Assembly: GCA_949130485.1 (NCBI GenBank)
Contig: OX422188.1
Coordinates: 7,967,443 to 8,031,442, forward strand
DNA from: Agelas oroides
Taxonomy: Eukaryota > Porifera > Demospongiae > Agelasida > Agelasidae
Length of the DNA: 64,000 bases
Direction: 5' to 3'
Below the pieces are notes generated by a model. The model was not told the origin of the DNA and did no database searches. It was given only the letters and a program-made list of their open reading frames with translations. Shown here in pieces: positions 44,995-64,000 of this stretch. Position numbers and translations under genes: made by a program. Every line of letters starts with the position of its first letter. The stretch's first letter is position 1.

Positions 44995-47900
44995 TTACTC
45001 AGTAACATTTCTCTCTGCTGCAATTGTGTCAGCAACTCCTGTTTGGTTCACCCTACGATCTCTCAGGGCCCTCACTAAGGTCCTCCATGTTGGCACCCCC
45101 CTCCTAGTCACCTGGTCTTCTCTCTGCAGCCATGCAGCTATCACATCATCTCTAAATGTTGGTGAGTCTCTCATGCTCCTCACATGAGGCTGGTTCAGCC
45201 CAAGGGTTAGCCCCAAATCGTAGATGTGAGTTGTCCCAAGGTCTAGCAGGTAGTTTGTGACATCAACAAGATCATCAATGGCTGTAGCAAGGCAAGAGAT
45301 CATAGATGTACATCTTCTTTTCTCATACGCATAGGACAATTATTGCTGTGTCAACACTTTTCCCGGTACTGTTACTGTTATTGGGAAAACTGCACATAAG
45401 CAGGCTGTTTCAGGGCTAATGCCTATGCTGTTATACACTTATTCAGTTCTATTTGGAGGGTCTCTGCAGGGTTCTCCTCAGCAGCTGGCTCTAGTCTCAT
45501 TCCCACCATTGACGAAAAAGGGGAGAGCCTGGGAACTGCAAAGCCAGGAAGCTAGGCTGAGATCCTGTGTCCAACCAATCGTAAGCAGAAAGACATGTAG
45601 CTGTTGCAGGGTATTACATCGTACATCCAATTATCAAGTACATATTTAGTTCATCTTTGCATGGTAACTGGGAATAATGCACATGAGCCGACTCTGCTTT
45701 CGGGCCCATGTGCATGTTCCTGTTAAATTATGCTTACTCAGTTCAATTTGGGGGTTCTCTACAGGATTCACCACAGCAGCTGGCTGCATGTTCTGGTGTT
45801 CTGCCACCAATGGAGCCAAGGAGCTAGGCTGAGATCCTGTGTCAAACAAAATTACAAGCAGAAAGATACCTTTACACTTCCATCAAAAGCTGACTTGTAG
45901 TACTGTGCCTGGAAATTAAAATGGCCACACTATATCTAGCTGGTTATACATATACTTACCAGGTGTATCTTCAAATACATCAGTGTTTATTTAACTCTCA
46001 AAAAAACTTTAACCAGCATATCAAATACTGCATATATGCTACACAAGCTCTGCTTCAGTGCACATGCACATACTCACTCATTTCAACTTGAGGATTTTCC
46101 ACAGGGTTCTCCTCAGCAGCTGACTGTATGTTCTGGTGTTCTGCCACCAATGGAGCTGGAAGGATTGGTGGACTCGGTCCTGTGTCTAACCAAATGGCAA
46201 GCAGATGAATGCACGAACTTTAAATGCTGCAGGTATTATTACATAGCTCCCTCATATACACTTTCATCAAATGCCAACATGTAGTAGTGAAATTTGAGGA
46301 ATTGGCCTGGAAAAAATGGCTAAAGTTTGTAGAGCCTGATGGACTACATACAAATATCATGCAGGTACATCTACTCCACTCTTCAACTCAGGCTATAAAC
46401 AACACATCACATGCATGCACTAACCAGGATGATGGACAATACGAAAGAAGTCATTTTCCCTTCCAGTTCCCACCAGCTTTACTCTGTATATCAGTGGGTT
46501 TGGATTTCTATCATTCCGGAGCCATTTTAGTAGGAGCACACATTCAGGCACCCAAGTGTTTTCTGATGAGAAATTATCGACTCGATCTCTCTCAATCTGA
46601 GCCGGATGGAGAATCACTGTCACATCTATGCAGGAGCTGAAGGCTAACAGACTTGAGTTTACCTGTGTTCTCTGAACTGGAACAATTTCCCATCCACTGT
46701 CTGTCTGTACGCCATCATCTGGAATGTTGAGGGCCACATGGTCAGCACCAAATGTAATGGGGGGAGCTATGTCATATCCCTGCTGATACTTCCTCTTCAC
46801 CATCTGAAGCAGTAACCACAAAAATCAATAATAACTTGCCATTCCAAACAAATTATACCAAAAGATGTAGCTACTTACTGTGAGGCACATCTTCAGGTTT
46901 TTGGTAACCACAAAATGGCAGTAGTACCAGTGGCTTGGCAGGTGTTTAACTGTGAAGTAGACTTGAGCACAATACTGACAGGAATGCTCACCAGGTTTCA
47001 CCTTCTTTGCTATTCCAGTCCCAGAAAAGTGGGTAGTGGTAAGTACTCCATACTTACTGCCAAGAATGAATGACCCTCCTTCTACGACTTCAAACTTGTA
47101 TGGAGGACATTTCTGGGCAGACTGAACAAAGCGTAGCTGACTAGGCTTGTTGAAATTGGCGCAATGCTGAGCTTCGATTGTGACTTTCTTTGTAAAACTT
47201 CCTGGAGTAGTCACCCAGTACACAGCACTAGCAAGCTCATAGCCCTTGGGAAGCTCGAACTGGCCTGAGAGGGAGGCTTTGATATTGACTGAATATTCAG
47301 GAGTACCTTCAGGAAGGGCATTCTCTGGAACATACAGCTTAAACCCATAGTCTTTCCATTGAAAGTTCATTGTTTCATTTGTGACCAGCAACTCCTCTTC
47401 ACCAACAACCTCAACACCTGGAACACCAGTGTAACCTGCATGGATTATGGAAAACAGTGCCATTAAACATTGTATGTCTGCAGCTACTGAGGTACTTGTG
47501 ATCAGTTTTCACTGCATGTGCCATGCAAAGCATGCATGAGCTCACCAGACTTTGACTTATGTAGCTGTCTCCTCAGGTCCTCATTCTCAACTTCCAGTTC
47601 CTTTATGCGCTGCAGTATATGCATGACAATGCTCAATGGTGGTTTATCCATTATGTGTAGGTTTGTATACCCATACAATTGCTTACCAATTTCATCTTTT
47701 CAGGTAGTGGGTCACTGCTACCCATGCCTGCAAGTGCAAATAATAAAACTGAGTTTTATACAATGATGGTTACTGTAGCTACCCCACCTGGCTCACCACT
47801 GTCCACCTTCCTCTTCTTTACTGCACTCCCTTCAGACACCTCTGGTTTTTGAACTGGAATTAAACAATGTGTACTTAAATATAAGTTGTGGGAGGGAGTT

Positions 47901-50900
47901 AGCTAAGAGGTAACTTCAATTACCCATGCTAGCTCTGTCCAGCTTTCTCTTCTCCCCCACACTCTTTCTAGGTACACTTGGTTCTGCACCAACTGCACCT
48001 AGATAGGAATAAACAGTGTTGCTGTGTTGTAGTCACATGAAAGTCACATGATAGTGGGCAGGTACTTCATCTACAGCTGATCTGTGTGCCCCATAGTACC
48101 TACCGGAACGATTGGTGATATTCAGCATCTTTGGCACCTTTGGTACAAACTTCTTTGATGAGTACTTCATCATCTGACATTCTCGGTATCTGTAGCAGTG
48201 TAATTTGATATTAACGATTGTATTATACAATAATTTGTATGAAACACCTACCTACAAAGCTTGTATGCTGTACCATCACCACCAAACTTGCGTTTTCTCC
48301 TGTATAACAAACAAAAAGCATTGATAACCCACTCAATTATGTGTATGTGATACTATACAACTAGAAATTAGAGTACTTACTGGCAGGCTTCACATTGACC
48401 ACAATCTTCTTTCTTCTTGTTGCGTAGACAACCAATACATTTGTCACATCGTCCTTGAGCTGCTGTGTGGACATGAGCTTAGTACAATGGTCACATCCGC
48501 ACAAACACAAAGGAACTAATTTTGAATTAGCTTTTGACAGTTGAGTGATCTAGTGGCTGCAGTATATATGTATAAGAGGGTTGGTGTGTGTGTGTGTGTG
48601 TGTGTGTGTGTTGGGGGGGGGGCAGATATTCTGTACTCTTCATGCTATTACCAGAGTTGTGAGCTTTGTACTTCAACTTCTGGCATTGATGATATCTGTA
48701 CAAAGTAATTTTCATTGTGTATGTACGTAATTTGTACACAGTATGAGGCTACTTACATACAAGACCTTTCTATTTTTCTTTTTCCAGGCCCACCAAACTC
48801 TGGCTTGTCCCTGTAGTGAAAATGATGAAAGCTATTCACAACATACTAGCTGATACTGATATATACAGTAGCAGTAATTGAAACATGCATTTTCCTCGTA
48901 GTATATCACTGCTACGAAATATTGCTTACTTGCAGGCGGCACATTCACCACAGTCCTCTTTCTGAATTGGCTGGCAACCGATACACTCCCCACAGTTTTG
49001 TTGGGGTTTTCTCCCTTGCTTTTTTAACACGGCACCACTGGCAGCTCTCTCTTCCTTCTTGTCATTTGACTTTTGTTGGCTTTGCTGTCCAGTTGGCTGT
49101 ACCAATGTTGGCAAAGCTGCAGGTACCGTGTGAGTGTTTCTTTCATAACTGCACTTGTTCTAATAAAGTCATGCAATTGAAGTGGGCATGTGTTAAGTTG
49201 GGCACACCCGTAAATTGAATTTGATACATTAAATTAATTTGTTCCACATCCACTGTTTTTCTGTGCATGTAGCTACCACCCTGGGTGCCCAGCCAGCTTC
49301 ACAATTTCATTCAAGACTGTTCATGCAGCTATAGCTCTGGTGATGCAGTAGACTACAGCTTTGTTCCATGTTTTGAGGATGTGCAAGTTTTTGTATGTAA
49401 CCAAATGTAAGCAGAAAGATGAACTGATTTACTAGGGGTATGACACTACTTTCCTTCCAGGACAGCTATTATACATTACAGTATACTTACTCAGTCCAAC
49501 TGGAGGTTCCCTTACTGGGCTCTTCTTAACAGCTGGAGGTACTGTTTGGTGTATTGTGGTTGAGAGAGTGGTTGGACTTTTCATCCGTGGTGCTGAGCCT
49601 GAGGAACGAGGCTGAGGTTCTGCATCTGATCAAGTATAAGCAGAAAGACACTAGCTCTTGCAAGGCACTACCTCATGCAGTTAAAATAAGACTGGTGCCT
49701 TCGCCATTTACTCTACACAGTATTTCACTTAATTGCAAGTTTTGACCACTTGCAATTGAGCATGTATACACAGTAAACTGCAAGTGGTCAAAATAGAAGT
49801 GGTGGTATAGCCTGGGAAAATGTGTACAAATTATTTAGCTGGCAAAATATATAGCTCTAACCTTGTTCGAATTAAGGCCTGAGTGTGCAACTATGAGGTG
49901 AGCTTTTGCACATAAGACCAAGTGTAAGCGGAAAGATAAGCTGATGTATGTACTCTGGGTATGAGGCTACTTTCCCCCCATATGTTAGATTGTGCATACT
50001 TGGTTTGACTGAGGATTGCTTTACTAGGCCCTTCTCAGCAGCTGGCTGTATTGTCTGGTGCTTTACGGCCACTGGAGCTCCTCCCCCTGTGTTTAGACCT
50101 TTGATCTGATGTGTTGAGGCTGAGGGATGAGGCTGAGATCCTGTATACAACCGGAACTCACTAACAGCTGTTACAAGGTATTAACTTGTGAATTTCACTA
50201 TGTCTTCTACAGAAGTAGCATGTTTGTTTCATTCTCACATCTACCCACTTTGTGACTGGCTACCCAGAATTTGTGGCTGGAACAAAATTCTGTTGACATA
50301 CGTGCATGGGTAGGACTTGAACACTAGTGATGGGCTGGGCAACTTCAAGCACTAGCAATACATATCCACTAAAGTGTTGCAAGAGCACTTTTTTTGTACT
50401 TTACAGATGATAAGTGTGTCAATACATGTGTGTTTCCACAGTGTCGATATGGTTATGTAAATTATTTTCGTATGGTACCTGATATTTACCCCCCTGCATG
50501 GTATTTTGCTTAGCGCATACAGAATGAATCTAATCATTAAAGCGTATTTAGCTAGCAAAACTGTGAGTCTGCCTGGCCTATAGACATCTCGAGTTTTGAT
50601 AACACAATTGTACTTGTATAAGTCCATTTGGAAAGAGCTGACTTTTAAATGACCTGTCTCTTATTCCATACACTCTTTCCAGATACTTCACATTGTTCAC
50701 ATACACCTAGTTATCAATCAGAGCTTTTAGAAACATTACATTGAGAGATACTATGCAGGTATTTCTTAATCTTCATGGTCCATGTTCAAGTAGGCATGCA
50801 AGTATGTAATGCACATAACTATACGTTTACACTTGAAAAAAAACTCCTGCACAAAACAACTTACCGATGTTGAGACTTTCAAGTGCATACTTCACCTTCT

Positions 50901-53900
50901 GACATTCACGGTATCTGTAACAATTCATGTTCAATGCTAATGATTGTGCTGTGTGGGATCATGTTATGTACTTACCTACACAGCTTGTGTGGTTCATTAG
51001 TCCTGCAGTACATAGCCAGGATTATTGATGCACTCTTATAGTACAACTATGAAGGTACTTACTTGCAGGCTTCACATTGGCGGCAATCATCCTTGCGGAG
51101 GCAACCAATACACTTCTCACACCGTCCTTTAGGTACAGCCACTGTATGCATGCACATGGGTGTAAAATTATAGTGCATGCAAAGTTCACATCAGCTATGG
51201 GCAATCTGGTGGCTGGAATACACATGCATGTACACACATATACAAGGGAGGAAGTTGGAGGGGGGACAACATGCGTTGAGTCACATGTTATACATATACA
51301 AGGGAGGAAGTTGGAGGGGGGAACAACATGCGTTGAGTCACATGTTATACATATACAAGGGAGGAAGTTGGAGGGGGGACAACATGCGTTGAGTCACATG
51401 TTATACATATACAAGGGAGGAAGTTGGAGGGGGGACAACATGCGTTGAGTCACATGTTATACATATACAAGGGAGGAAGTTGGAGGGGGGACAACATGCG
51501 TTGAGTCACATGTTATACATATACAAGGGAGGAAGTTGGAGGGGGGACAACATGCGTTGAGTCACATGTTATACATATACAAGGGAGGAAGTTGGAGGGG
51601 GGACAACATGCGTTGAGTCACATGTTATACATATACAAGGGAGGAAGTTGGAGGGGGGAACAACATGCATTGAGTCACATGTTATACATGCATACCGGGG
51701 TTGTTTGGATCCTTTAGTGTGTACTTCAGCTTCTGGCATTCATGATAACTGTAATAATTAACACAAGAGTCACTGTGTACCTGGATTAGTATGTAACTTG
51801 TACATAGATGGGTTACTTACATACAAGCCTTTTTTCTGGTTCCAGACCCACCAAACTGTATCATGTCCCTGTAATAAGTAGTACAGTAAATAAATACAAC
51901 ACAATGGTCTTCATATGACCAAAGCACTTAATTGAAGAGGACATGCATCATGATAGTTAAAGTGGTGCTTACTTGCATGCTTCACAATCACCACAGTTCT
52001 CTTTCTGAATTGGCTGGCAACCGATACATTCTCTACACCTTTGTCGCCTTCCTTGTCTTTGACCACCTCTCTCATTTTGCTGACCTTGGTGCTCAGCTGG
52101 TTGTGTCAATGTTGGTGTAGCTACAGATAGCATGGTCACAGTGAGTTATGTATGTCATTTTTGCTTACAGCCTATGTACATCTAAACATTACATCTATTG
52201 CTAGATGCATGGTCTTCATTTTTGTCCATGCTTGATAGATTCATGGTATTAGCCTCGTTCCCAGGCCCCGCCCAGCTTTCTGTCACTTGCAATACCTTTC
52301 GATTTTTCGTTCATGCGTGGGGAGAGCCTGGGAACGAGGCTATCATGGTATAGTAAGCTTTAAATTAGCAACAAGCAGCTCGATAAAGATTTTTGGAAGC
52401 AATTTTGACTACTATAGGCTACCTGTCTTCTCATCATTGTCCAGCTTCTTCTTCTTTATTGCACGCAATCCAGACACCTCTGGTTTTTGAACTGGAATAA
52501 AGTAATATGTGCTTTGTTTTATAAGTTGTGTAGGAGTTAGGGGAATACCTTCTAAATTACCCGTGCTACAACTGTCCAGCATTCTCTTCTGCCCCACCAT
52601 CTTTTCATGATCAGATACTCTTGGCTTTACACCAACTGCACCTATAGGTAAGAGTGAATACACAACTAGCTCGGCATTGATATGTTATGTTGCTGTCACA
52701 TATGAGTGTATTCAGGTGTATATTTTAGTTTACAGCTGATCTGTGTGGTTTGTGTAAATAAAAAACTCTAGCTGCATGTGTATGTGTATGTTGCACAATA
52801 ATGCCAGACTAGACAATTGACTCCTATTTTTTGTAGTGTATAAGTGCATGAGTAATACCATACTCACCAGAGTGATACCCAGAATCATCTGACCGTGCAC
52901 TGTGAGCTGTAAAAATGGTATTGCTGCACAATAATGGCAGGCTAGACAATTAAATTGCTATTTTTGTAGTGTATGGGGATGAGTAATAGCTGTGACTCAC
53001 CAGAACCAGCTGAGTGTACACTTTGAGCTGCAGAAAGAGGTTGTACATTATGTCACACCCACAACATTCATCACAATTATCTGTAACCAACATGATTAGA
53101 GCAAGATTTACAGCCAGGCCAAATTCATATAAAAATTGGAGATTAATTTAACCCAAGACAGGTTGTCTCAGTTGCAGTTTGGCCTTGTCCAGGACGAGGT
53201 CATGACCCACCTCCCACCTTTTGCCATAGTTAGGGTTACATTCTTTGTCCACTCAAGTTTCCAAGAAAACAGAAATTCTTTTGCTTGTGCCAGACAAGGG
53301 ATGGAACTCTGGCTGAACTCAGGCAATATTCATGTCTATAGGGTTAAACCCTGGACAGTATTCATGCAGTGTTGCACAAGTATGTCTGCCTTACTGGAAT
53401 TTGGAACACAAGGGATGTACCCCTAAACCAAAAGGTCGGAGGTACCATAAACTAGTGTCAAGGTTTACAGAGTGATTCTAGCATAGGCTATTGTATACTT
53501 GTGCTAGCTTTTATTTGGTGTGCACTTCAGCTTCTCCCAACTAGGGTACCATGAACTCATACCTAGGGATGGTTGTGGTGGTGGTTCAATCTTAAGCGTT
53601 ATGAAATTGCCAGGTGGTTTTGCTCCCAGTAGCTTTATTCTGTGACGAAGCTCTACAGGATGCTCCTCTGGCTTGGTCCACTTCACACGCAGTGCAAAGC
53701 AAGCTACCCGCTCTGCAAAATGCTGGGTATGCTCATCTCTGAGCTGCATTAAGATCAGGAATGAGAACAAAATAATGATAGCAAACCAAAATGTGTACAA
53801 ATAGCCTTACCTCAGAGGTAGCACGGGGAGTGATGGACCATCCACTCGCCAGCACAACTCCCTCCGCTGGAATATCCAATGTAATCTCACTCTGCTCAAA

Positions 53901-56616
53901 GAGAACGGCCTGATCATCACCCTTGACACTAGGCTGCAGTGAAAGGAATTATATTTACTATAGCTGCATGAATCTAGTCGCTTTAATTCCATGAACATAG
54001 TGCCTCTTTAGTAGAATTGGAAGCAGATTACAGTATGGATGAGATACTCTGGCTTCATAAATGTACCAGTTAATACTTGCCAGGCAATCTCAGCAAAAGG
54101 ATCATTTTACACGTTAATTGGGTTTGTTTTACTTCCTGTGTTTTAACTTCTGGCAAATTTACTTAAGGCTGGATTTTTATCGATTTGTCTTCCCCCACCA
54201 TTGGTGGGGTTTTGGATTTCTTACATGGGGAAACTACCCACTTGGGACTCAAGAATGGGCATGCATAATTACTGGATTTGATAGCCTCATTCCATAATCT
54301 ACAAATGTTCCTTGGTAACTAGTAAGCAACAGCCAACTTTCTGAATTAGGCAGCAGCCAATACCTGCTTCATGTGGAGTAATTACAAAATCCCCAAAGAA
54401 CTGAAGGAATAAGTGCCCAGACCATGGGTGTAAGCAAGATTTCTGACAGCATTAACTTGCATCCACATGGTTGTTAGTTTCAACCACCCTTATAAGTTTA
54501 CAAAACAACAAAAGAGCTATTAAATGCTTCCCTGTTAGATAGTGTATACTACTCTTGCCTTTTTTATGCACCATTTGTTAACTTATTTTAACTATCAATG
54601 CATGCCCTTTCAAGCATGTTAAAATTATGTGGGTGTATACTACTTGTATTTAGTGGGGGTGTACCTGGAAATACCCTCAATGTGTTGTACAAGTAAACTC
54701 CAAGGGTACTTCCCTTAGGGTTTCCACAAAGTACACAAGTTTTCTTGTGTAGGCTTATCTCCTTATCTAAATTCCTAGGGCACCCTCACGGTTTGCTTCT
54801 GTAAGTTCTAGTGTGAAGTTTGGGTATATATCCATAATGGTTTGAGTCTACTAGTGATAACTTACACTGTCAATGTCTTCCCTGGTGGTCACAAAGTGGG
54901 CAACCCCCTTACTACTACAGTAGAACACAGCACGGTAAGAAGGTGTGAGGCGTCCCAGACTAGACATGTTGGTTTCTGTCTCTGAAGATGTGTGAAGAAG
55001 CACACGGTTTCTTTCAATGTCCAGCGCTGTAACAGAAAGTTTAGTAAGCCTGAAATGGTAAGTGCATGGTGACATTATAGTCATTATGCTGTATAGTGAC
55101 CTATTACATGACTGAGAATACATATATAGAATATAGATATATGTCATGAGAATAGGGTAGATTTTGCTAAAAACAAAAGTGAAAAATGCTGCTCACAAGC
55201 CATGTCCAGCCATATTCTGTGCAATAATAATTGGACACATTGCACACGTTGTACCGATATTATATACTGTGTACTGGAAAGTATCATGAATCTGTTAGCA
55301 AGGTATCGGTACAAGGCTAGTATGAGCAGTGCTGCAGGCATGAGTGCCAATACACCCAACACTCACAACAGGCATCATTTGACTGTTACTTGCATGCATG
55401 TGCAATTACGTATTATACTGCATTGCACTTGACACATGATCACCAATACAAACAGGTGTTGTGACGTACACTGGCCTGCATAAAGTCTATTGTGTATGTT
55501 AGCTATGTAGCTATCATGTAAGCTCACAACAATGTAATAACTCTGCAGGGTATGAAATAACTGCAGAGACCAAGACCTAAAATTATAGGGGTTAGTGTTC
55601 AAAAAGCTTGGGCTAGTAGTAAGAGCCACTTGGGTTAGTAGTGACAACCATTTTTCAAACAAAATTATATGGTGTGCTGCAGCTAGCAGCTATAAGACAG
55701 CTGCAGATACAAGTGGTTGAGGAGCTGTGATTATGTGATGCAACATGCACGGAATCCTATAGTACAGAAAGTGTCAAAGAAACAGACCTAAAATTGACTA
55801 CAGACTGAGGTCTATACTCAAAAACTGCATGGTCCACTAAAATTGCATTTTTCTTCTTTCAGTTTGCCAAATTGCACCAGAATCAACCAGAATACTTGCA
55901 CTTATAAGCATGCTTCCCAGAAAAATTTTCAGTATACTGAAAATTTTTCTGGGAAGCATGCTCCATGATCCCCACTATACGAGGGCTAGTGGTACTGACT
56001 ATCAGAAGTTTTATATAGGCTCTGGTGTAGACATATAACCTATATAGGGGGATGCAGTATGGGAAAATATCAATCAATGGTTTGCCAGCAGTATAGCTCT
56101 CACATGTCTTCCGAATGAGTTACTTAGCACATATCCTATTTGTTGCTCAGGAGAACAATTTTTATCATGTATAATAAAGCCGATTTGATATAGAAGCAAC
56201 CACCAACGGTGGGACGCGTAACCGGCCGGCATCTTGAATTAATTTTATGAGTTAATAGCTGAGGGTAGCTGTATCCCAGTTATTACGACTGATCGAAGAT
56301 TTGTCAACAGCAGTACTTGCATGTAGTGTTATAGTATATTACTATTATCTTGGATTTTCAGTACCTAGAGTTGACTATTATTATAATCGGGTAAAATGTG
56401 GCTTCAATACAAATGCTTGACTCTGAGAGAAAAAGAAAATTAACATGAACTATGTGACATGTTTGCTACCGGTGATGTGCCCCTGCTATACAAAGTGAAC
56501 ATGTATTAGATCTGGTTTCGACCAACCTGGTAAGTCACGCAGCTCTATGGTTGTGAAGGCCAATGGAAGGTGGAGGCTGGAGCACTCTGATGGCGAGTCT
56601 TCACTGAAAACCCACT
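44995..56616 (-). CDS. CXXC zinc finger - ZU5 - UPA-like - Death domain protein (5' end not found)
   Basis: Thirty-two phase-coherent exons, 3548 nt, at least 1181 aa: 56616-56527, 55026-54866, 53933-53811, 53743-53563, 53027-53001, 52906-52868, 52641-52561, 52491-52423, 52120-51973, 51868-51821, 51748-51696, 51141-51063, 51002-50976, 50914-50865, 50140-50000, 49625-49491, 49116-48930, 48810-48757, 48695-48652, 48462-48381, 48299-48252, 48189-48104, 47998-47924, 47853-47797, 47727-47687, 47609-47546, 47435-46879, 46803-46663, 46596-46425, 46179-46078, 45836-45738, 45281-44995. Domains in order: orphan UPA-like module (1-185), Ser-rich and Lys-rich exons, CXXC 1 (258-340), short CXXC 2 (341-392), linkers, CXXC 3 and 4 (485-651), KKRKV basic exon, coiled coil RIKELEVENEDLRRQL, ZU5 (about 731-916) with THFSG, UPA-like (917-1020), linkers, Death (about 1090-1181). 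The CXXC fingers show CDKCIGC, DCGQCEAC, KFGG and LCRYREC. Whether this is one gene or two fused models needs transcripts. Confidence 0.75.
45443..45564 (-). pseudogene. decayed linker exon with a hairpin inserted
   Basis: This is a third copy of the linker exon found at 45836-45738 and 46179-46078: acceptor-side GGATCTCAGCC and the end CAAATAGAACTGA are recognisable. A hairpin element (about 45492-45537, TAGTCTCATTCCCACC and GAGAGCCTGGGAA) interrupts it and brings in-frame stops. The donor has changed from GTAAG to ATAAG. It is therefore left out of the gene model. Confidence 0.75.
51240..51690. repeat. 56-bp minisatellite, about eight copies
   Basis: ACAAGGGAGGAAGTTGGAGG, then GGGGACAACATGCGTTGAGT and CACATGTTATACATAT, recurs with a 56-bp period in the intron between CXXC 1 and CXXC 2. 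Copies are almost identical. Confidence 0.93.
52252..52345. repeat. hairpin element, AGCCTCGTTCCCAGGC family
   Basis: TAGCCTCGTTCCCAGGCCCC and GAGAGCCTGGGAACGAGGCT enclose CGCCCAGCTTTCTGTCACTT. This is the least decayed copy seen and lies in an intron of the CXXC/ZU5/Death gene. Confidence 0.8.
55907..55962. repeat. 56-bp perfect palindrome
   Basis: AGCATGCTTCCCAGAAAAAT through to its exact complement, symmetric about 55934/55935 with no spacer. It lies in the 1.5-kb intron between the first two mapped exons of the CXXC/ZU5/Death gene, which otherwise shows no recognised feature. Confidence 0.95.
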
Positions 56617-56816: not shown

Positions 56817-59800
56817 TCACTGATGAATGATTTTTTCATTTGCAATCTTGTCAGCAATCTCATTTTGTTTCAGTCTAGGGTGTCTCAAGGCCTTCACCAA
56901 GTTCTCCCACGTCGGCACTCCCCTCTTGGACACTTGGTCCTCTCTCCGCAGCCATGCAGCTATCACATCATCCAGAAAGGTGGGTGACTCCATCATGCCC
57001 TTCACACGACTCTGGCTGAGCCCCAGGACCAGGGCCAGGTGGTAGACCTCAAGGTGGGTGCTGCTGTCCATTGTCAGCAGGTAGTCAGTGACATCAATGA
57101 GGTCCTCATCACCTGAGATGGTAGACGCAGAGGCCATTAAAAACAAGGATTTCTCATCGTGATATTCTTGATGCCTTGATCTCAGAATCATGTTAGCAGC
57201 AGTTTTATGAGCAACTTGATTCAAGAGTGGACAAAACATGCCCTGAAATAAAGATCTCAGGTTGGGGTTGTTCCATTTATGTCAATAGACCTTATGCAAT
57301 TGACGTCATCACCTCACGTAACCAAACGTGAAATGGATGGTGGACGGAAATCCGCCGCCATTTTGAGTGGCAAAAATGACCGCGGTCTATGGAGCGGAGC
57401 AGTTTGCGAGCTCCTTTCTCACCAGCACAGGAAGTGATTTTACATTTCTAATATACCCAGATGCACAAGGTCTCAACAGGACCTAACGCTCACCGAAGCG
57501 AATAAGCTTACCTGCATGCCTCGTTGACGCAGTGAGCTCACAAAGTGCTTCGCTGTACTTAAGCTCCATAGACCGCGGTCTTCCTTGCCACTCAAAATGG
57601 CGGCGTAGTATCCGGATTCCGTCCACTGTCCGTTTTACGTTTGGTTACGTGAGGTATTGCATAAGGTCAATAAGGACCTGGTGATGAGAAACATTTCAAT
57701 TTCAGTTAGCCTCATTCCCATGCAGGCTCCTCCCCAGCTCTATGGTCACATAATGTGTACATTACGCAACAGAAAAGCTGGGGAGGATCCTGGGAACGAG
57801 GCTAATCTACAGTACCACTATTAGCCATTACCTTCAACCTCTAATGCAGCAGTGTGGCTCCACAGACATGTTAGGTATACCAAGGGACCCTTGGTGGCTT
57901 GATACATATGGGTACAGTAAGGGTACTTAATGTACAATGTGCTTAAAACAACCACAATCACTTTGTAGGTCAGGAAAGTATGCTCTACAGGAAGCCTGCC
58001 TGAGTCCATGGAAATTGGGAGTGATTCAGCTACATACTTACAAAGTTCCTGGTCCAGGTCAGCTTCACTATCACCTGTGGTGATAAAATAATGATGGTAT
58101 TGAATTTTGCTACTCTACAGGACAAAGATCTAGCTGCATGATCCAGCATTGCAATAGAACAAGTTGTATGAGTCTCATTCCCAGGCCATGAGACCTGGGA
58201 ATGAGACTGCACTTACCAAGTTCTAGATCTGGCACACGTTTGTATTTGTCATCTGTTGAGGTGAAGTGAAGTGCAGTGCAGTGGTCATACCAGTCTACTG
58301 TCATGCAAAGTTTTAGACAAGATGCAAAGAGAAGCATACCGTAATTCGCTTTTTTTCATCTGGTAAATTTTCGTCAAAAAAATATTCATGTAAAATAATT
58401 TTCGCACAGACCAAATTGAACAAAAATAATTATACAAGTTGCGTGTGGTGGGCATTAATTGAGGAGATCGCACCGCGTTCCAAAGAGATGGCTTGTGAAA
58501 AGGAAATTAATGGCTTGTTGTGTTAGAGGCTAACACATATACGAGGATATATGGGCAGCAGCAATTGGGGAAGTGCTTGTGTGTAGCAGGGAGCCAACCG
58601 ATGCGGAAAAATTTTTGTTGTAAAATTATATTTGCGTAAAAAATTTTTGTACGTTTTCTGTGTACAAAAATATTTTTACAATGAAAAAAAGCGAATTACG
58701 GTACATGTAATTATGCCAAAAATACACAACTGTAGATTGTAAGTCGGACACCATGTATATTCAAAGCTTGAGTATTGAAACCATTGAAGCAATGCATAGA
58801 GGGAATGTCTACCGTCTGCACTGGAGGTGAACTGGCTAGCATGGCTATGTTTGGACTTATTGTGAAAATACGTAACTTACTCTACTGTGCTTAGTCTCAT
58901 ACCCAGGCGTGGAGGATGGGGGAGGAAAAAGAGCGCCTGGCTTACACTGTTTTCACATGCGCTTAACTGCCATGCAATTCCATGGCGACCATGTTTGTAC
59001 GTGTACATACGTATACTAGTGATGTCACAAACTCTCTGTTTGTTAGTTGGCATTCTGTTCGAGCCAGTTTTATCTTGCGCTGTTCTATGCCTTCTGGTGG
59101 CTGGATATCTCAAGAAGAAGTTCAAGAAAGGACAGGTTGCCACCATTGAGTGCATTTACCGAGGAAACATAACTGTATACGGTTACCCACCCCCCCTCCA
59201 TATCTGGGTACAAGGCTATGGTGTGCTGTACTAATACACAGAAACGAAGGACATAGCCACCCCCCCTCCATATCTGGGTACAAGGCTATGGTGTGCTGTA
59301 CTAATACACAGAAACGAAGGACATAGCCACCCCCCCTCCATATCTGGGTACAAGGCTATGGTGTGCTGTACTAATACACAGAAACGAAGGACATAGCCAC
59401 CCCCCCTCCATATCTGGGTACAAGGCTATGGTGTGCTGTACTAATACACAGAAACGAAGGACATAGCCACCCCCCCTCCATATCTGGGTACAAGGCTATG
59501 GTGTGCTGTACTAATACACAGAAACGAAGGACATAGCCACCCCCCCTCCATATCTGGGTACAAGGCTATGGTGTGCTGTACTAATACACAGAAACGAAGG
59601 ACATAGCCACCCCCCCTCCATATCTGGGTACAAGGCTATGGTGTGCTGTACTAATACACAGAAACGAAGGACATAGCCACCCCCCCTCCATATCTGGGTA
59701 CAAGGCTATGGTGTGCTGTACTAATAATACACAGAAACGAAGGACATAGCCACCCCCCCTCCATATCTGGGTACAAGGCTATGGTGTGCTGTACTAATAC

Positions 59801-62800
59801 ACAGAAACGAAGGACATAGCCACCCCCCCTCCATATCTGGGTACAAGGCTATGGTGTGCTGTACTAATACACAGAAACGAAGGACATAGCCACCCCCCCT
59901 CCATATCTGGGTACAAGGCTATGGTGTGCTGTACTAATACACAGAAACGAAGGACATAGCCACCCCTCCTCCATATCTGGGTACAAGGCTATGGTGTGCT
60001 GTACTAATACACAGAAACGAAGGACATAGCCACCCCTCCTCCATATCTGGGTACAAGGCTATGGTGTGCTGTACTAATACACAGAAACGAAGGACATAGC
60101 CACCCCTCCTCCATATCTGGGTACAAGGCTATGGTGTGCTGTACTAATACACAGAAACGAAGGACATAGCCACCCCTCCTCCATATCTGGGTACAAGGCT
60201 ATGGTGTGCTGTACTAATACACAGAAACGAAGGACATAGCCACCCCTCCTCCATATCTGGGTACAAGGCTATGGTGTGCTGTACTAATACACAGAAACGA
60301 AGGACATAGCCACCCCTCCTCCATATCTGGGTACAAGGCTATGGTGTGCTGTACTAATACACAGAAACGAAGGACATAGCCACCCCTCCTCCATATCTGC
60401 TGTACTAATACACAGAAACGAAGGACATAGCCACCCCTCCTCCATATCTGGGTACAAGGCTATGGTGTGCTGTACTAATACACAGAAACGAAGGACATAG
60501 CCACCCCTCCTCCATATCTGGGTACAAGGCTATGGTGTGCTGTACTAATACACAGAAACGAAGGACATAGCCACCCCTCCTCCATATCTGGGTACAAGGC
60601 TATGGTGTGCTGTACTAATACACAGAAACGAAGGACATAGCCACCCCCCCTCCATATCTGGGTACAAGGCTATGGTGTGCTGTACTAATACACAGAAACG
60701 AAGGACATAGCCACCCCTCCTCCATATCTGGGTACAAGGCTATGGTGTGCTGTACTAATACACAGAAACGAAGGACATGGCCACCCCCCCTCCATATCTG
60801 GGTACAAGGCTATGGTGTGCTGTACTAATACACAGAAACGAAGGACATGGCCACCCCTCCTCCATATCTGGGTACAAGGCTATGGTGTGCTGTACTAATA
60901 CACAGAAACGAAGGACATGGCCACCCCTCCTCCATATCTGGGTACAAGGCTATGGTGTGCTGTACTAATACACAGAAACGAAGGACATAGCTATACTTAG
61001 TATATCAGCACGTCTCTAATTTGCTTCCTGTACCCATGATGGGAGAAAGTTGCGTACATTATATGTTCTACGTCATTGACCTTGTATATGTGGCAGTCCC
61101 GTGTAGAAATCGAAGGTTATTCCGTCGCGTATTTCGATCATATCGCTGCGTTCAAAGCGCCGTATCGCTGAACTTCCGTTAAGGGTGGGGCTCATACATG
61201 CTTCGTAGATGCATGAATATCTAATGAGTTTACGAGCGCGTATGAGCGCCGCCCTTCACGGAAGTTCAGCGATACGGCGCTTTGAACCCAGCAATGCGAT
61301 CGAAATACGCGACGGAATAACCTTCGATTTCTACACGGGACTGCCACATATAGTAGGAGTAGATTTTGAATATCATTTTGTGGTCTTAAATAAACCGACT
61401 CCACTACTACAGTTTATCGTTGACATACCTTTGCTTTGCAACTCAGCTGTATAGGTTATAGGGGGAGTTATAGGAGAGGAAAGGGAGAGAATATCAATGA
61501 TGGAACATGGCTCATTGTAAAATGTACAAATAGGCATTTTAAAAGTTCTAATTTACTTACCAAGTTCCACAAGTTCCTCTGCAGCGTCATTATTCTCTGT
61601 CAAATGACACAAAACATTTTATAGACTGAGTGACATCGCATGAAATTGCCTTATTGACATATAATACAGCACATACGTAACTAGAATAATGCAGTATAGA
61701 ACAGCTGGTGTCAATACACTCGTCCCTGTGTGTGACATTGCTCTGTATTGACATTGCTCTCTACTGATTTCCCTCTACCTGGCCTTGCTCCCAGGAAAGA
61801 GAGTCACTTTGCCCAGGTTTACAGACTGTCATCTAAGAGAGTGTCTTCTCAGTCACCACCACGACTCCACAAGTCTCTTGGTACTTCACCGACTGGCTAG
61901 TTAGTTGTCACACTTACTGTACTCACGCATTGTTAAGCACATTTCGCTTATAACTGCGTATTTACTGTTAAGTGCTGTTGCATGTGGTACTCTAAATAAA
62001 GCACACACAAGACGCACCTCGTTGTTAGACACATTTTGCTGTTAGGCTCACATTTCCTTAATTCCCGTGAAGATCTAAGCTACATGTACGATACTTGCAT
62101 TCCAAGGCTACATGTACATCTGTACTAAATATAGCTCTTACAATTACAATGTACCGGTATATTAGTGCTGGAATATTGATTGGTATTTACCGGAAAAAGA
62201 TGATTCACTTTCGGATAACAATTCATTTTTAATGGTGGTAGGAGGAAGATCCTCAGGTGAGTAGCTTAGCCCTGGCTCTGTAGGAAGAACAAACATTAAA
62301 CTCACGCTAATGTATGGGAGTCAATGGGGAAGCCTTGCAGCTGCATGCAGTTTATAAAAAGCCGTATTTTTTACTACAAGTCATGCAAGAATTCGTATCA
62401 GGTACTGCAAGTCACGCGTGCTGCGTTTGAACGTACAATGAAATCGAAGCTTCGTATGATAAAATCATTATCACCATAGTACCAAGCTATAGTGAAAAAA
62501 ATATCACTCGTTTGTTGCCATTGGTGTTAATTGTTACTCGTGCTGTGCACTCGTAACAATACAGACGGCAACAAACTCGTGATATAGCTTTGTACTATGG
62601 TGATACTTGTATATTATCAAATGTGACATGGCAATACTAAAGTCTGTAGTGTGTTTTCCTCTAATGTGGGTACAATACAGTACAAAACCTAGCTGTTGTG
62701 AGCAGCAAGGATCCTCACTTCAGACAAAGAATAGTGTCTTCAAAAGAAGAAGAAAACGTCTTGATTGTAGACCCCAAAAGAGGAAAGAGGTCTGGGTAAG

Positions 62801-63499
62801 TGGGTATAAGTCTAGTGTCCTGAAATCAGGGATGTACTCTAAGAGGGGCTGCACTGTATTATACACCTTACACACGATACCACTACTCGGGCCTGGAACA
62901 GTTCATGACCTGTATTGTCCTCCTGTTTGTCTAGCCTTTTCTTCTTCGCTGGACTTCCTCTGGATTCCTCCGGTGCAGGAGCTGCAGCTAATGAAATAAA
63001 CATCCAATGGCACTTTCCATCTGGTAATGACCATCACATCAAGTAGTGCTCACCTGTGGTCTCATTTCTTGGTTGATACTTCAACTTCTGACATTCACGA
63101 TATCTGCAGCAAATTAACATGGTCCATTTTTAGTATTACCAATCTGCATCAGTTAGCTCATTCCCATGCCATTTGTAGTCTCATTTCCATACCATTTGTA
63201 GTCTCATTCCCATGCCATTTGTAGTCTCATTCCCAGACCACTTGTAGTCTCATTCCTTACCACTTGTAGTTTCATTCCCAGACCACTTGTAGTCTCATTC
63301 CCAGACCACTTGTAGTCTCATTCCCAGACCACTTGTAGTCTCATTCCTAGACCACTGTAGTTTCATTCCCATACCATTTGTAGTCTCGTTCCCAGATCAA
63401 TGTCTTATTTAAGATGAGGCTACAAATTAGATGTAGAGTAGTACTGCTTACAGGCAACGCTGGTAGCGTTTTCCAATCCCTCCGAACTTCCTTTTGTTC
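56817..63499 (-). CDS. CXXC zinc finger - Death domain protein (5' part beyond window)
   Basis: Eight minus-strand exons found: 63499-63452, 63103-63054, 62987-62910, 62277-62191, 61596-61561, 58252-58217, 58074-58042, 57112-56817. They sum to 664 nt, in frame, about 220 aa. The first two encode the second half of a CXXC finger (RKFGGIGKRYQRC, YRECQKLKY); the first half must lie beyond 64000. Next come a basic exon (SPAKKKRLDKQED), a Ser/Glu-rich exon with IKNE (a SUMO-type consensus), and three acidic mini-exons of 33-36 nt (AAEELVELG, VPDLELG, DLDQELC types). The Death exon reads IDVTDYLLTM, LALVLGLSQSRVKGM, DDVIAAWLRREDQV and GVPTWENLVKALRHPRL. That exon closely resembles the Death exon at 45281-44995. 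All internal junctions except those inside the CXXC are phase 1. Confidence 0.78.
57285..57670. mobile_element. about 0.39 kb inverted-repeat element
   Basis: The ends ACCTTATGCAAT...CCTCACGTAACC and GGTTACGTGAGG...ATTGCATAAGGT are inverted, and the interior again pairs (GACCGCGGTCTATGGAG with its complement). It lies in the intron before the Death exon of the CXXC-Death gene. Confidence 0.75.
57708..57805. repeat. hairpin element, AGCCTCGTTCCCAGGC family
   Basis: TAGCCTCATTCCCATGCAGG and ATCCTGGGAACGAGGCTA, with inner arms CTCCTCCCCAGCTCT and AGCTGGGGAGG. Confidence 0.7.
58339..58701. mobile_element. 363-bp Tc1/mariner-like MITE
   Basis: The ends CCGTAATTCGCTTTTTTTCA and TGAAAAAAAGCGAATTACGG are exact inverse copies. 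It is flanked on both sides by TA, the target dinucleotide of Tc1/mariner elements. AT-rich interior; no coding content. Confidence 0.85.
59188..60990. repeat. 70-bp satellite array, about 26 copies
   Basis: The unit contains CCTCCATATCTGGGTACAAG, GCTATGGTGTGCTGTACTAA and TACACAGAAACGAAGGACAT. Units are almost identical. One near 59722 has an extra AAT and one near 60400 lacks about 22 bp. The poly-C start alternates between two variants that cluster in blocks (CCCCCCC early, CCCCTCC later), as expected from unequal exchange. It lies in a CXXC-Death gene intron of about 3.3 kb (58253-61560). Confidence 0.97.
61085..61352. mobile_element. 268-bp foldback element
   Basis: The arms start TATATGTGGCAGTCCCGTGT and end with its complement, with arms of about 90 bp including CGATACGGCGCTTTGAA. 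The loop is about 70 bp. Same intron as the 70-bp array. Confidence 0.85.
63155..63405. repeat. 23-bp tandem repeat, about ten copies
   Basis: CCACTTGTAGTCTCATTCCC with variants (CCATTTGTAGTC). TAGTCTCATTCCCAGACC is the left end of the window-wide hairpin family, so the array probably arose from one hairpin end. It lies within the CXXC intron at the right edge. Confidence 0.85.
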
Positions 63500-64000
63500 C
63501 TACAGTGTAACAAGAGTGTAACCTTAGTGACTCCCTCAATGGCCGACTTGTGTGGGAACAGAATTTTGGTGGTGGAAAATGAAAGAAAGCCAGCTGCTAT
63601 GAACCGTCAATTAGCTCAATAGAACATCAAGTGATGTACTTGTAGCAGATGATTGCCTATCTCTGTGATAATGAGCAACTGTAATGCTCCTTGGGAAAAA
63701 CAAGACTGTCCTGATATTAAGGAACTACTGTAGCATGCAGACTGGCCAGTGGAAGTGATTGACATAGCTAGCAAATTGCAACTACCTCATTCCTAAGTGT
63801 CAAACTGTCCATGAGAACAAATTTTGGTACATAATTTTTGGATGCATGTTCATGAAATTAGTACCACATGAAAATTTACCGCTGTGCAGCAGTGACAGCA
63901 AGAAGCTGGAGCTTGGATTGGTCTAGGCTCAACTCTTGCTGGGGTAAACCCTGCTATTATTGACCAATCCTACTAGGACCATACTATGACATCATCATTA
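63500..64000. other. right edge, intron of the CXXC-Death gene
   Basis: The exon at 63499-63452 starts in phase 2, so another CXXC exon must lie upstream. None with a GCCTGCAA-type end is visible up to 64000, so I take this as intron. Confidence 0.5.

Follow-up and report, generated by a model that had tools for sequence, protein, structure and literature searches.

A candidate sponge gene joining four CXXC fingers to a ZU5 domain and a Death-like terminal domain

Does a single animal gene combine several CXXC zinc fingers with a ZU5 domain and a death-fold domain, and what might such a protein do? The question is raised by a 64,000-nucleotide stretch of the Agelas oroides genome (the window; C6:7967443-8031442), in which an earlier note, made from the sequence alone, had read a protein with four CXXC fingers followed by ZU5, UPA-like, and Death modules. 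Here, the gene model was reexamined and its parts were searched for throughout the 259.3-Mb, 141-contig assembly.

Between 53.9 and 45.0 kb, the minus strand of the window holds about 30 exons with GT-AG introns in a single reading frame. A home-made gene finder that chains exons, for which six exons from this window served as the training set, placed 30 to 36 minus-strand exons in one gene with its 3' end at 44995. With exon hints and looser splice limits (the stricter limits apparently excluded the CXXC2 acceptor), it gave 31 exons and 1115 residues. Two tiny exons of this model (54372-54364 and 45968-45960) were not trusted, and the UPA-position exon was split in two (Table 1) because a stop codon lies at that place in four related stretches (C6:7.928 Mb, L022, L024, and L028). 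These changes leave 30 exons and a calculated length of about 1,090 residues. At one setting, the gene finder scored the gene at 135.3, the opposite strand at 0, and 20 first-order Markov shuffles at 0 to 0.1, a comparison that is not independent because the program was trained on six exons of the same window. The earlier note had counted 32 exons in one frame; the GT-AG borders and the single frame were confirmed, and the models begin, provisionally, at 54372, 55240, or 55375 instead of 56616. A minisatellite of eight 56-bp units (51236-51689) lies inside an intron of the gene.

As far as can be judged from the sequence, the architecture of four CXXC fingers, ZU5, UPA-position domain, and Death-like domain is real, and the locus looks like an intact animal gene. 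The predicted protein runs from a UPA-like domain through a first and a second CXXC pair, a basic linker, a short coiled coil, ZU5, and a UPA-position domain to a Death-like end.

Table 1. Positions of the features in the window, listed from 5' to 3' on the minus strand
Feature	Span	Exons	Strand	Remarks
Upstream tandem paralog, 3' part	56817..64000		-	CXXC pair to Death-like; first CXXC exons past window end (L009)
UPA-position-like domain upstream of the fingers	53563..53933	53933-53811, 53743-53563	-	tblastn to paralog R
First GAVG and VQKP linker exons	52423..52641		-	Basic clusters KRMLD, KKKKLD
CXXC1	51696..52120	52120-51973, 51868-51821, 51748-51696	-	QFGG; contact tripeptide RKK; Pfam 38.7 bits
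CXXC2	50865..51141	51141-51063, 51002-50976, 50914-50865	-	Eight Cys; KFGG segment lost; tripeptide PHK; 20.5 bits
PAAE-type linker exons	49491..50119	50119-50000, 49598-49491	-	Paralogous exons (identity as high as 76%) for the first exon
CXXC3	48652..49116	49116-48930, 48810-48757, 48695-48652	-	EFGG; two-residue insertion; tripeptide read IER; 38.0 bits
CXXC4	48104..48462	48462-48381, 48299-48252, 48189-48104	-	KFGG; tripeptide AYK; 32.8 bits
Second GAVG and VQKP linker exons	47788..47998	47998-47924 (GAVG), 47853-47788 (VQKP)	-	Clusters KRKLD, KKRKVD; last CXXC-family exons
First ZU5-family exons	47546..47727	47727-47687 (phase 1), coiled coil 47609-47546 (phase 0)	-	Exon order and phases as in C11 ZU5 gene
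ZU5 exon	46879..47435		-	PIDD-type HFS motif (TTHFSGTG); Pfam PF00791 24.6 bits
UPA-position domain	46425..46803	46803-46663, 46596-46425	-	Conserved with ZU5-Death genes elsewhere in genome
PAAE-type linker exons	45738..46185	46185-46078, 45836-45738	-	69% mutual identity; paralogous exons
Death-like terminal exon with stop	44995..45281		-	Genome matches; hhalign to Pfam Death domains

The four CXXC fingers were borne out. Each has eight cysteines and three exons (cysteine octet, FGG exon, and YxxC exon), a layout identical in the spliced paralogs, and as a set they scored 90.6 bits over four stretches of the joined model against Pfam zf-CXXC (PF02008). Scored singly, three exceeded the cut-off of 26.5 bits and CXXC2 fell below it (Table 1). 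Among 13 copies seen, ten, including the four of the window, could be aligned, and all eight cysteines were retained in each. The other three were a copy with stops at C6:7.897 Mb and two copies at C6:7.935 Mb; in one of these two no middle exon could be recognised, and in the other the KFG segment was short. When the ten-finger profile was compared with the PDB, the CXXC structures of KMT2B, CFP1, and KMT2A ranked first (best, KMT2B 4pzi, E 1.8e-11). The dN/dS of the window fingers against their paralogs was 0.30 when pooled (0.13 to 0.62 in four pairs; Fisher p = 4e-7 from rounded counts). Because the eight cysteines are present and the pooled ratio is 0.30, the fold is probably retained.

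The CpG-contact pair is KQ or RQ in type 1 CXXC fingers and HQ in type 3, and type 2 fingers, without the pair and KFGG, do not bind CpG, as stated in PMC4642587 and, for the contact pairs, PMC3685328. Aligned to KMT2B, window fingers 1 to 4 have KK, HK, ER, and YK at this place, the ER of CXXC3 being uncertain because a two-residue insertion adjoins it. Neither KQ nor RQ occurs in any of the four, and the contact glutamine is absent from all of them. FGG is present in three, and the exact KFGG that had been listed as a feature of the fingers is confined to CXXC4 (QFGG, absent, EFGG, and KFGG in order). In the neighbouring fingers, the glutamine is present in four of six (HQ, YQ, YQ, and YQ) and L stands in its place in two. 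CpG reading by the window copy is thus doubtful.

These results bear on the function first proposed for the protein, that of a nuclear sensor bound to unmethylated CpG DNA and signalling via a death fold. It would agree with the ranking of the KMT2B and CFP1 structures, with the HQ or YQ pairs next door, and with a CpG observed/expected ratio of 0.39 in the window, a depletion that suggests a methylated genome. The missing glutamines, the single exact KFGG, and the behaviour of type 2 fingers speak against it, and we now consider it unlikely. Its CpG-binding part is weakened, whereas nuclear residence of the protein is plausible from basic clusters in the linkers.

The linker clusters KKRKVD, KKKKLD, KRKLD, and KRMLD resemble monopartite nuclear signals. 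A basic cluster precedes D in all nine linker exons tested, with a strict K[KR]x[KR] in three. Exons that lie 3' of CXXC in a neighbouring gene, paralog A, share 83% and 79% identity with the second GAVG exon and the second VQKP exon, respectively. The first VQKP exon matches paralog exons in frame; the first GAVG exon was matched only via a different reading frame of its duplicate in the window. Linker exon 49598-49491 has a single weak, probably chance match. As short PAAE-type exons (50119-50000, 46185-45738, and those of the C6 paralogs) recur in phase, both inside single genes and from one gene of the cluster to the next, the linkers seem to lengthen through duplication of exons. Upstream of the fingers lies a UPA-position-like domain that the earlier note had left unnamed. 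Its exons are 66-75% identical (tblastn) to C6:7903923-7904279, 5' of the CXXC exons of a further neighbour, paralog R, and they match the downstream UPA-position exon weakly (tblastn); Pfam did not recognise the domain in the joined model. At a dS of about 0.13, dN/dS was 0.83 for the linker exons and 0.58 for the upstream UPA-like exons, without clear constraint.

In the 3' half, the coiled-coil stretch is similar to that of two other ZU5 loci (L026 and L029). The ZU5 domain exceeded its Pfam cut-off of 21 bits in every model, by the exon alone (Table 1) and at 22.2 and 21.3 bits in joined models, the last with a margin of 0.3 bit. Its exon has 67-76% identity to the ten closest on other contigs among the matches listed. 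Of the 139 ZU5 matches listed, 25 paralogs could be aligned over the motif; 21 of them have HFS, and the other four have RFS, KFS, HFC, and HFC. PIDD is reported to cut itself at an HF/S site (PMC3210808). The next domain, which is conserved with ZU5-Death genes elsewhere in the genome, stands in the UPA position. Pfam UPA (PF17217) had no match in the model or in the six-frame genome, the genome search being of little weight as its controls were equally unmatched.

For the Death module, the support comes from profile comparison. Pfam Death (PF00531) had no match in the joined window model. Among seven aligned family members, it matched only the distant exon of paralog A, at 22.1 bits against a cut-off of 22.6, and it matched none of four further, more distant relatives. 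In one uncalibrated hhalign comparison, a nine-member terminal-exon profile aligned over 76 columns, with 92.8% probability, to four Pfam Death domains of the genome; the window exon alone reached 6.5 bits against the profile of those four. Neither the Death-like nor the UPA-position alignment gave a credible match when compared as a profile with the PDB. The exon has at least 82 genome matches, itself included, with the best other at 81% (best 150 of 224 candidates scored), and the genome-wide Pfam Death list (best 150 of 870 candidates scored) was too saturated to decide its nature. In comparisons with paralogs, dN/dS was 0.38 for ZU5 and 0.44 for the Death-like exon, although any constraint may lie in the partner gene of each pair. 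The profile search that the earlier note had suggested placed the CXXC set and, narrowly, ZU5 above threshold, and the sub-threshold scores that the note had named as a refutation did not arise for them; Pfam Death and UPA had no match in the joined model.

The model could have fused two separate genes lying head to tail, one with CXXC and the other with ZU5 and Death. ZU5 and Death-like exons are common elsewhere in the genome, and the models of ZU5 genes in four regions on other contigs (C1, C2, C7, and C11) show no CXXC. In addition, the two halves can be parsed separately, the 3' half from 47651. The gain of the joint over the split parse (13.1, 11.1, and 9.1) was rejected as evidence for one gene, being about the size of the preset charge of 11 for an extra gene; without this charge, the net gain was 2.1, 0.1, and -1.9. 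Against two genes, the intron between the second VQKP exon and the first ZU5-family exon is 60 bp long. In the ZU5 gene on C11, the GSNSDTLPEQVKL exon, the coiled coil, and ZU5 follow in the order and phases of the window (1, 0, and 1), with one tiny modelled exon between coiled coil and ZU5, and modelled exons continue upstream of the GSNSDTLPEQVKL exon. Since the first ZU5-family exon of the window starts in phase 1, mid-codon, like its C11 counterpart, a preceding coding exon is needed, and the VQKP exon ends in a fitting phase. The spacing and the phase match make two adjacent genes very unlikely; as the phase match takes the place of the rejected score, the odds on one gene were unchanged. 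Furthermore, GAVG, VQKP, PAAE, and Death-like exons come after CXXC in the paralogs. Thus, the sequence supports the earlier reading of one gene in which CXXC, ZU5, and a Death-like domain are combined.

The gene lies within a 150-kb cluster whose other members also begin with CXXC and end in a Death-like domain; ZU5 was not found in those paralogs. Among the matches listed (E up to 1), CXXC1-like half-exons occupy at least eight genomic places, seven of them on C6 at 7.885-8.036 Mb. The adjacent upstream tandem paralog (modelled at 68189-56817, with one KFGG exon near 63.5 kb left out) scored 61.1 bits over two stretches against Pfam zf-CXXC and has a Death-like exon 56% identical to that of the window gene; ZU5 was not found in it. 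A 70-bp minisatellite of about 25 units (window 59187-60991) lies in one of its modelled introns. Paralog A has a CXXC pair (one finger in the model) and linkers, and its end scores 18.8 bits in the whole protein against the Pfam Death cut-off of 22.6. Paralog R (C6:7900890-7921072; L013-L015) has a UPA-like domain, a CXXC pair, a GTPase-COR-like region, linkers, and a Death-like exon. Its COR-A score of 34.5 bits is just below the cut-off of 35.3, its P-loop-like stretch was judged by eye, and the COR-like region had one PDB match, 4wnr, named a leucine-rich-repeat protein (E 2.4e-4). Although outside the window, paralog R is possibly as unusual as the window gene. A less complete family copy is found at C6:7.935 Mb. 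The local family shares a CXXC N-terminus and a Death-like C-terminus around a middle module that differs (none seen, GTPase-COR-like, or ZU5).

Within the cluster, the ZU5 of the window stands alone among the 139 places listed (best 150 of 156 candidates); tblastn gave fragments at 7.927 Mb. When the 98 CXXC places listed were set against the 139 ZU5 places, two ZU5 had a CXXC within 10 kb on the same strand, where about 0.5 pairs are expected by chance. In the second pair, on C18, ZU5 comes first and the CXXC copy after it, which scores 28.5 bits, contains a stop; the CXXC is upstream only in the window. The CXXC-then-ZU5 fusion was therefore seen once, in one genome, among the places listed.

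Such rarity would also be expected if the gene were a functionless product of recent local rearrangement, in which a ZU5 module recombined into a CXXC cluster with broken copies. The cluster also contains the broken CXXC of C6:7.897 Mb, and C6:7927008-7928992 (L016) holds fragments of a ZU5-UPA-Death copy whose UPA-position part is 85-87% identical to that of the window gene; the segment lost from CXXC2 and the linker exons without clear constraint point the same way. The fusion may indeed be young, and it could be non-functional. However, about 30 exons of the joined model run without a stop or frame break, and the ratios for CXXC, ZU5, and the Death-like exon argue for constraint, with the reservation already made about the partner paralog. 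On balance, we think it improbable that the gene is functionless.

Outside the cluster, further CXXC matches were encountered. At L006, a match (1501-1635, plus) adjoins an OTU cysteine-protease-like frame (828-1424, minus; Pfam OTU, 41.7 bits). Several of the 91 CXXC matches listed have the same score and the same frame length, a pattern suggestive of a mobile element. Two matches 10 kb apart (C4:7447492 and C4:7457722) lie in long open frames (638 and 646 residues).

The HFS motif of ZU5 and the basic clusters of the linkers favour a reading in which the protein is a nuclear death-fold adaptor, PIDD-like in the autoprocessing of its ZU5, that docks through an array of CXXC folds. The gene would then represent a new combination of domains within a family shuffled locally. 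We give this reading a probability of roughly one half. In this scheme, the basic linkers would bring the protein into the nucleus, and the paired CXXC folds would dock DNA or chromatin proteins, classical CpG selectivity probably being absent in this copy. The ZU5 would cut itself at its HF/S site, as in PIDD, and the C-terminal Death-like part, once released or uncovered, would assemble a death-fold signalling complex. The exon structure, the domain order, the family context, and the motifs gained and lost are read directly from the DNA; the nuclear site, docking, autoproteolysis, and signalling are what we infer from them. A bolder proposal, which we consider unlikely, extends to the whole C6 cluster: its genes would encode nuclear receptors for DNA, with an origin in sponges separate from that of TLR9. 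Their CXXC pairs, some with HQ or YQ, would read unmethylated CpG and act through swappable middles (none, GTPase-COR, or self-cutting ZU5) on a death fold, and the window copy, in which the contact residues are lost, would be a decoy or regulator.

In the published open-access literature searched, including the accessible parts of PMC8195603, PMC3210808, PMC12909245, PMC4642587, and PMC3685328, a CXXC finger joined to ZU5 or Death was not described. If expressed, the window gene would unite a DNA-binding fold of the chromatin type with a self-cutting, PIDD-like module for death signalling, a combination not found described in those sources. It would be a testable candidate for the coupling of nuclear DNA state to death-fold signalling in an early-branching animal, and would represent domain shuffling caught between neighbouring genes, with the middle module varying.

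Compared with known systems, the window fingers share the eight-cysteine crescent pattern of the type 1 CXXC domains of KMT2A/KMT2B, CFP1, DNMT1, and KDM2. They differ in the loss of KQ/RQ from all four and in the joining of finger pairs to signalling-type domains; no Pfam chromatin-enzyme domain was found in the window model. Like the type 2 fingers CXXC1 and CXXC2 of MBD1, they combine a CXXC fold without CpG-contact residues with several fingers per protein (PMC4642587), whereas the window model has no Pfam MBD match and three of its four fingers keep FGG. A likeness to ROCO-type GTPases concerns paralog R, not the window gene: a P-loop-like and COR-like region precedes its Death-like exon, but CXXC exons stand at its N-terminus. 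DAPK1 is a ROCO-type GTPase with a C-terminal death domain. NLRP1 and CARD8 are not known to contain zinc fingers. In their FIIND, an autoproteolytic ZU5-UPA is joined to a death-fold domain, with SF/S and a CARD where the window gene has HF/S and a Death-like domain (PMC3210808). Finally, PIDD1 (LRR, ZU5, UPA, and Death) has the same succession of ZU5, UPA position, and death-like domain, and the window ZU5 ends in HFS, corresponding to the HF/S site reported for PIDD in PMC3210808. PIDD1 has leucine-rich repeats where the window gene has four CXXC fingers; the 1115-residue model, with its provisional N-terminus, gave no LRR match with an E-value of 1 or less. The UPA and Death parts of the window gene are too diverged for Pfam, and its self-cleavage is putative.
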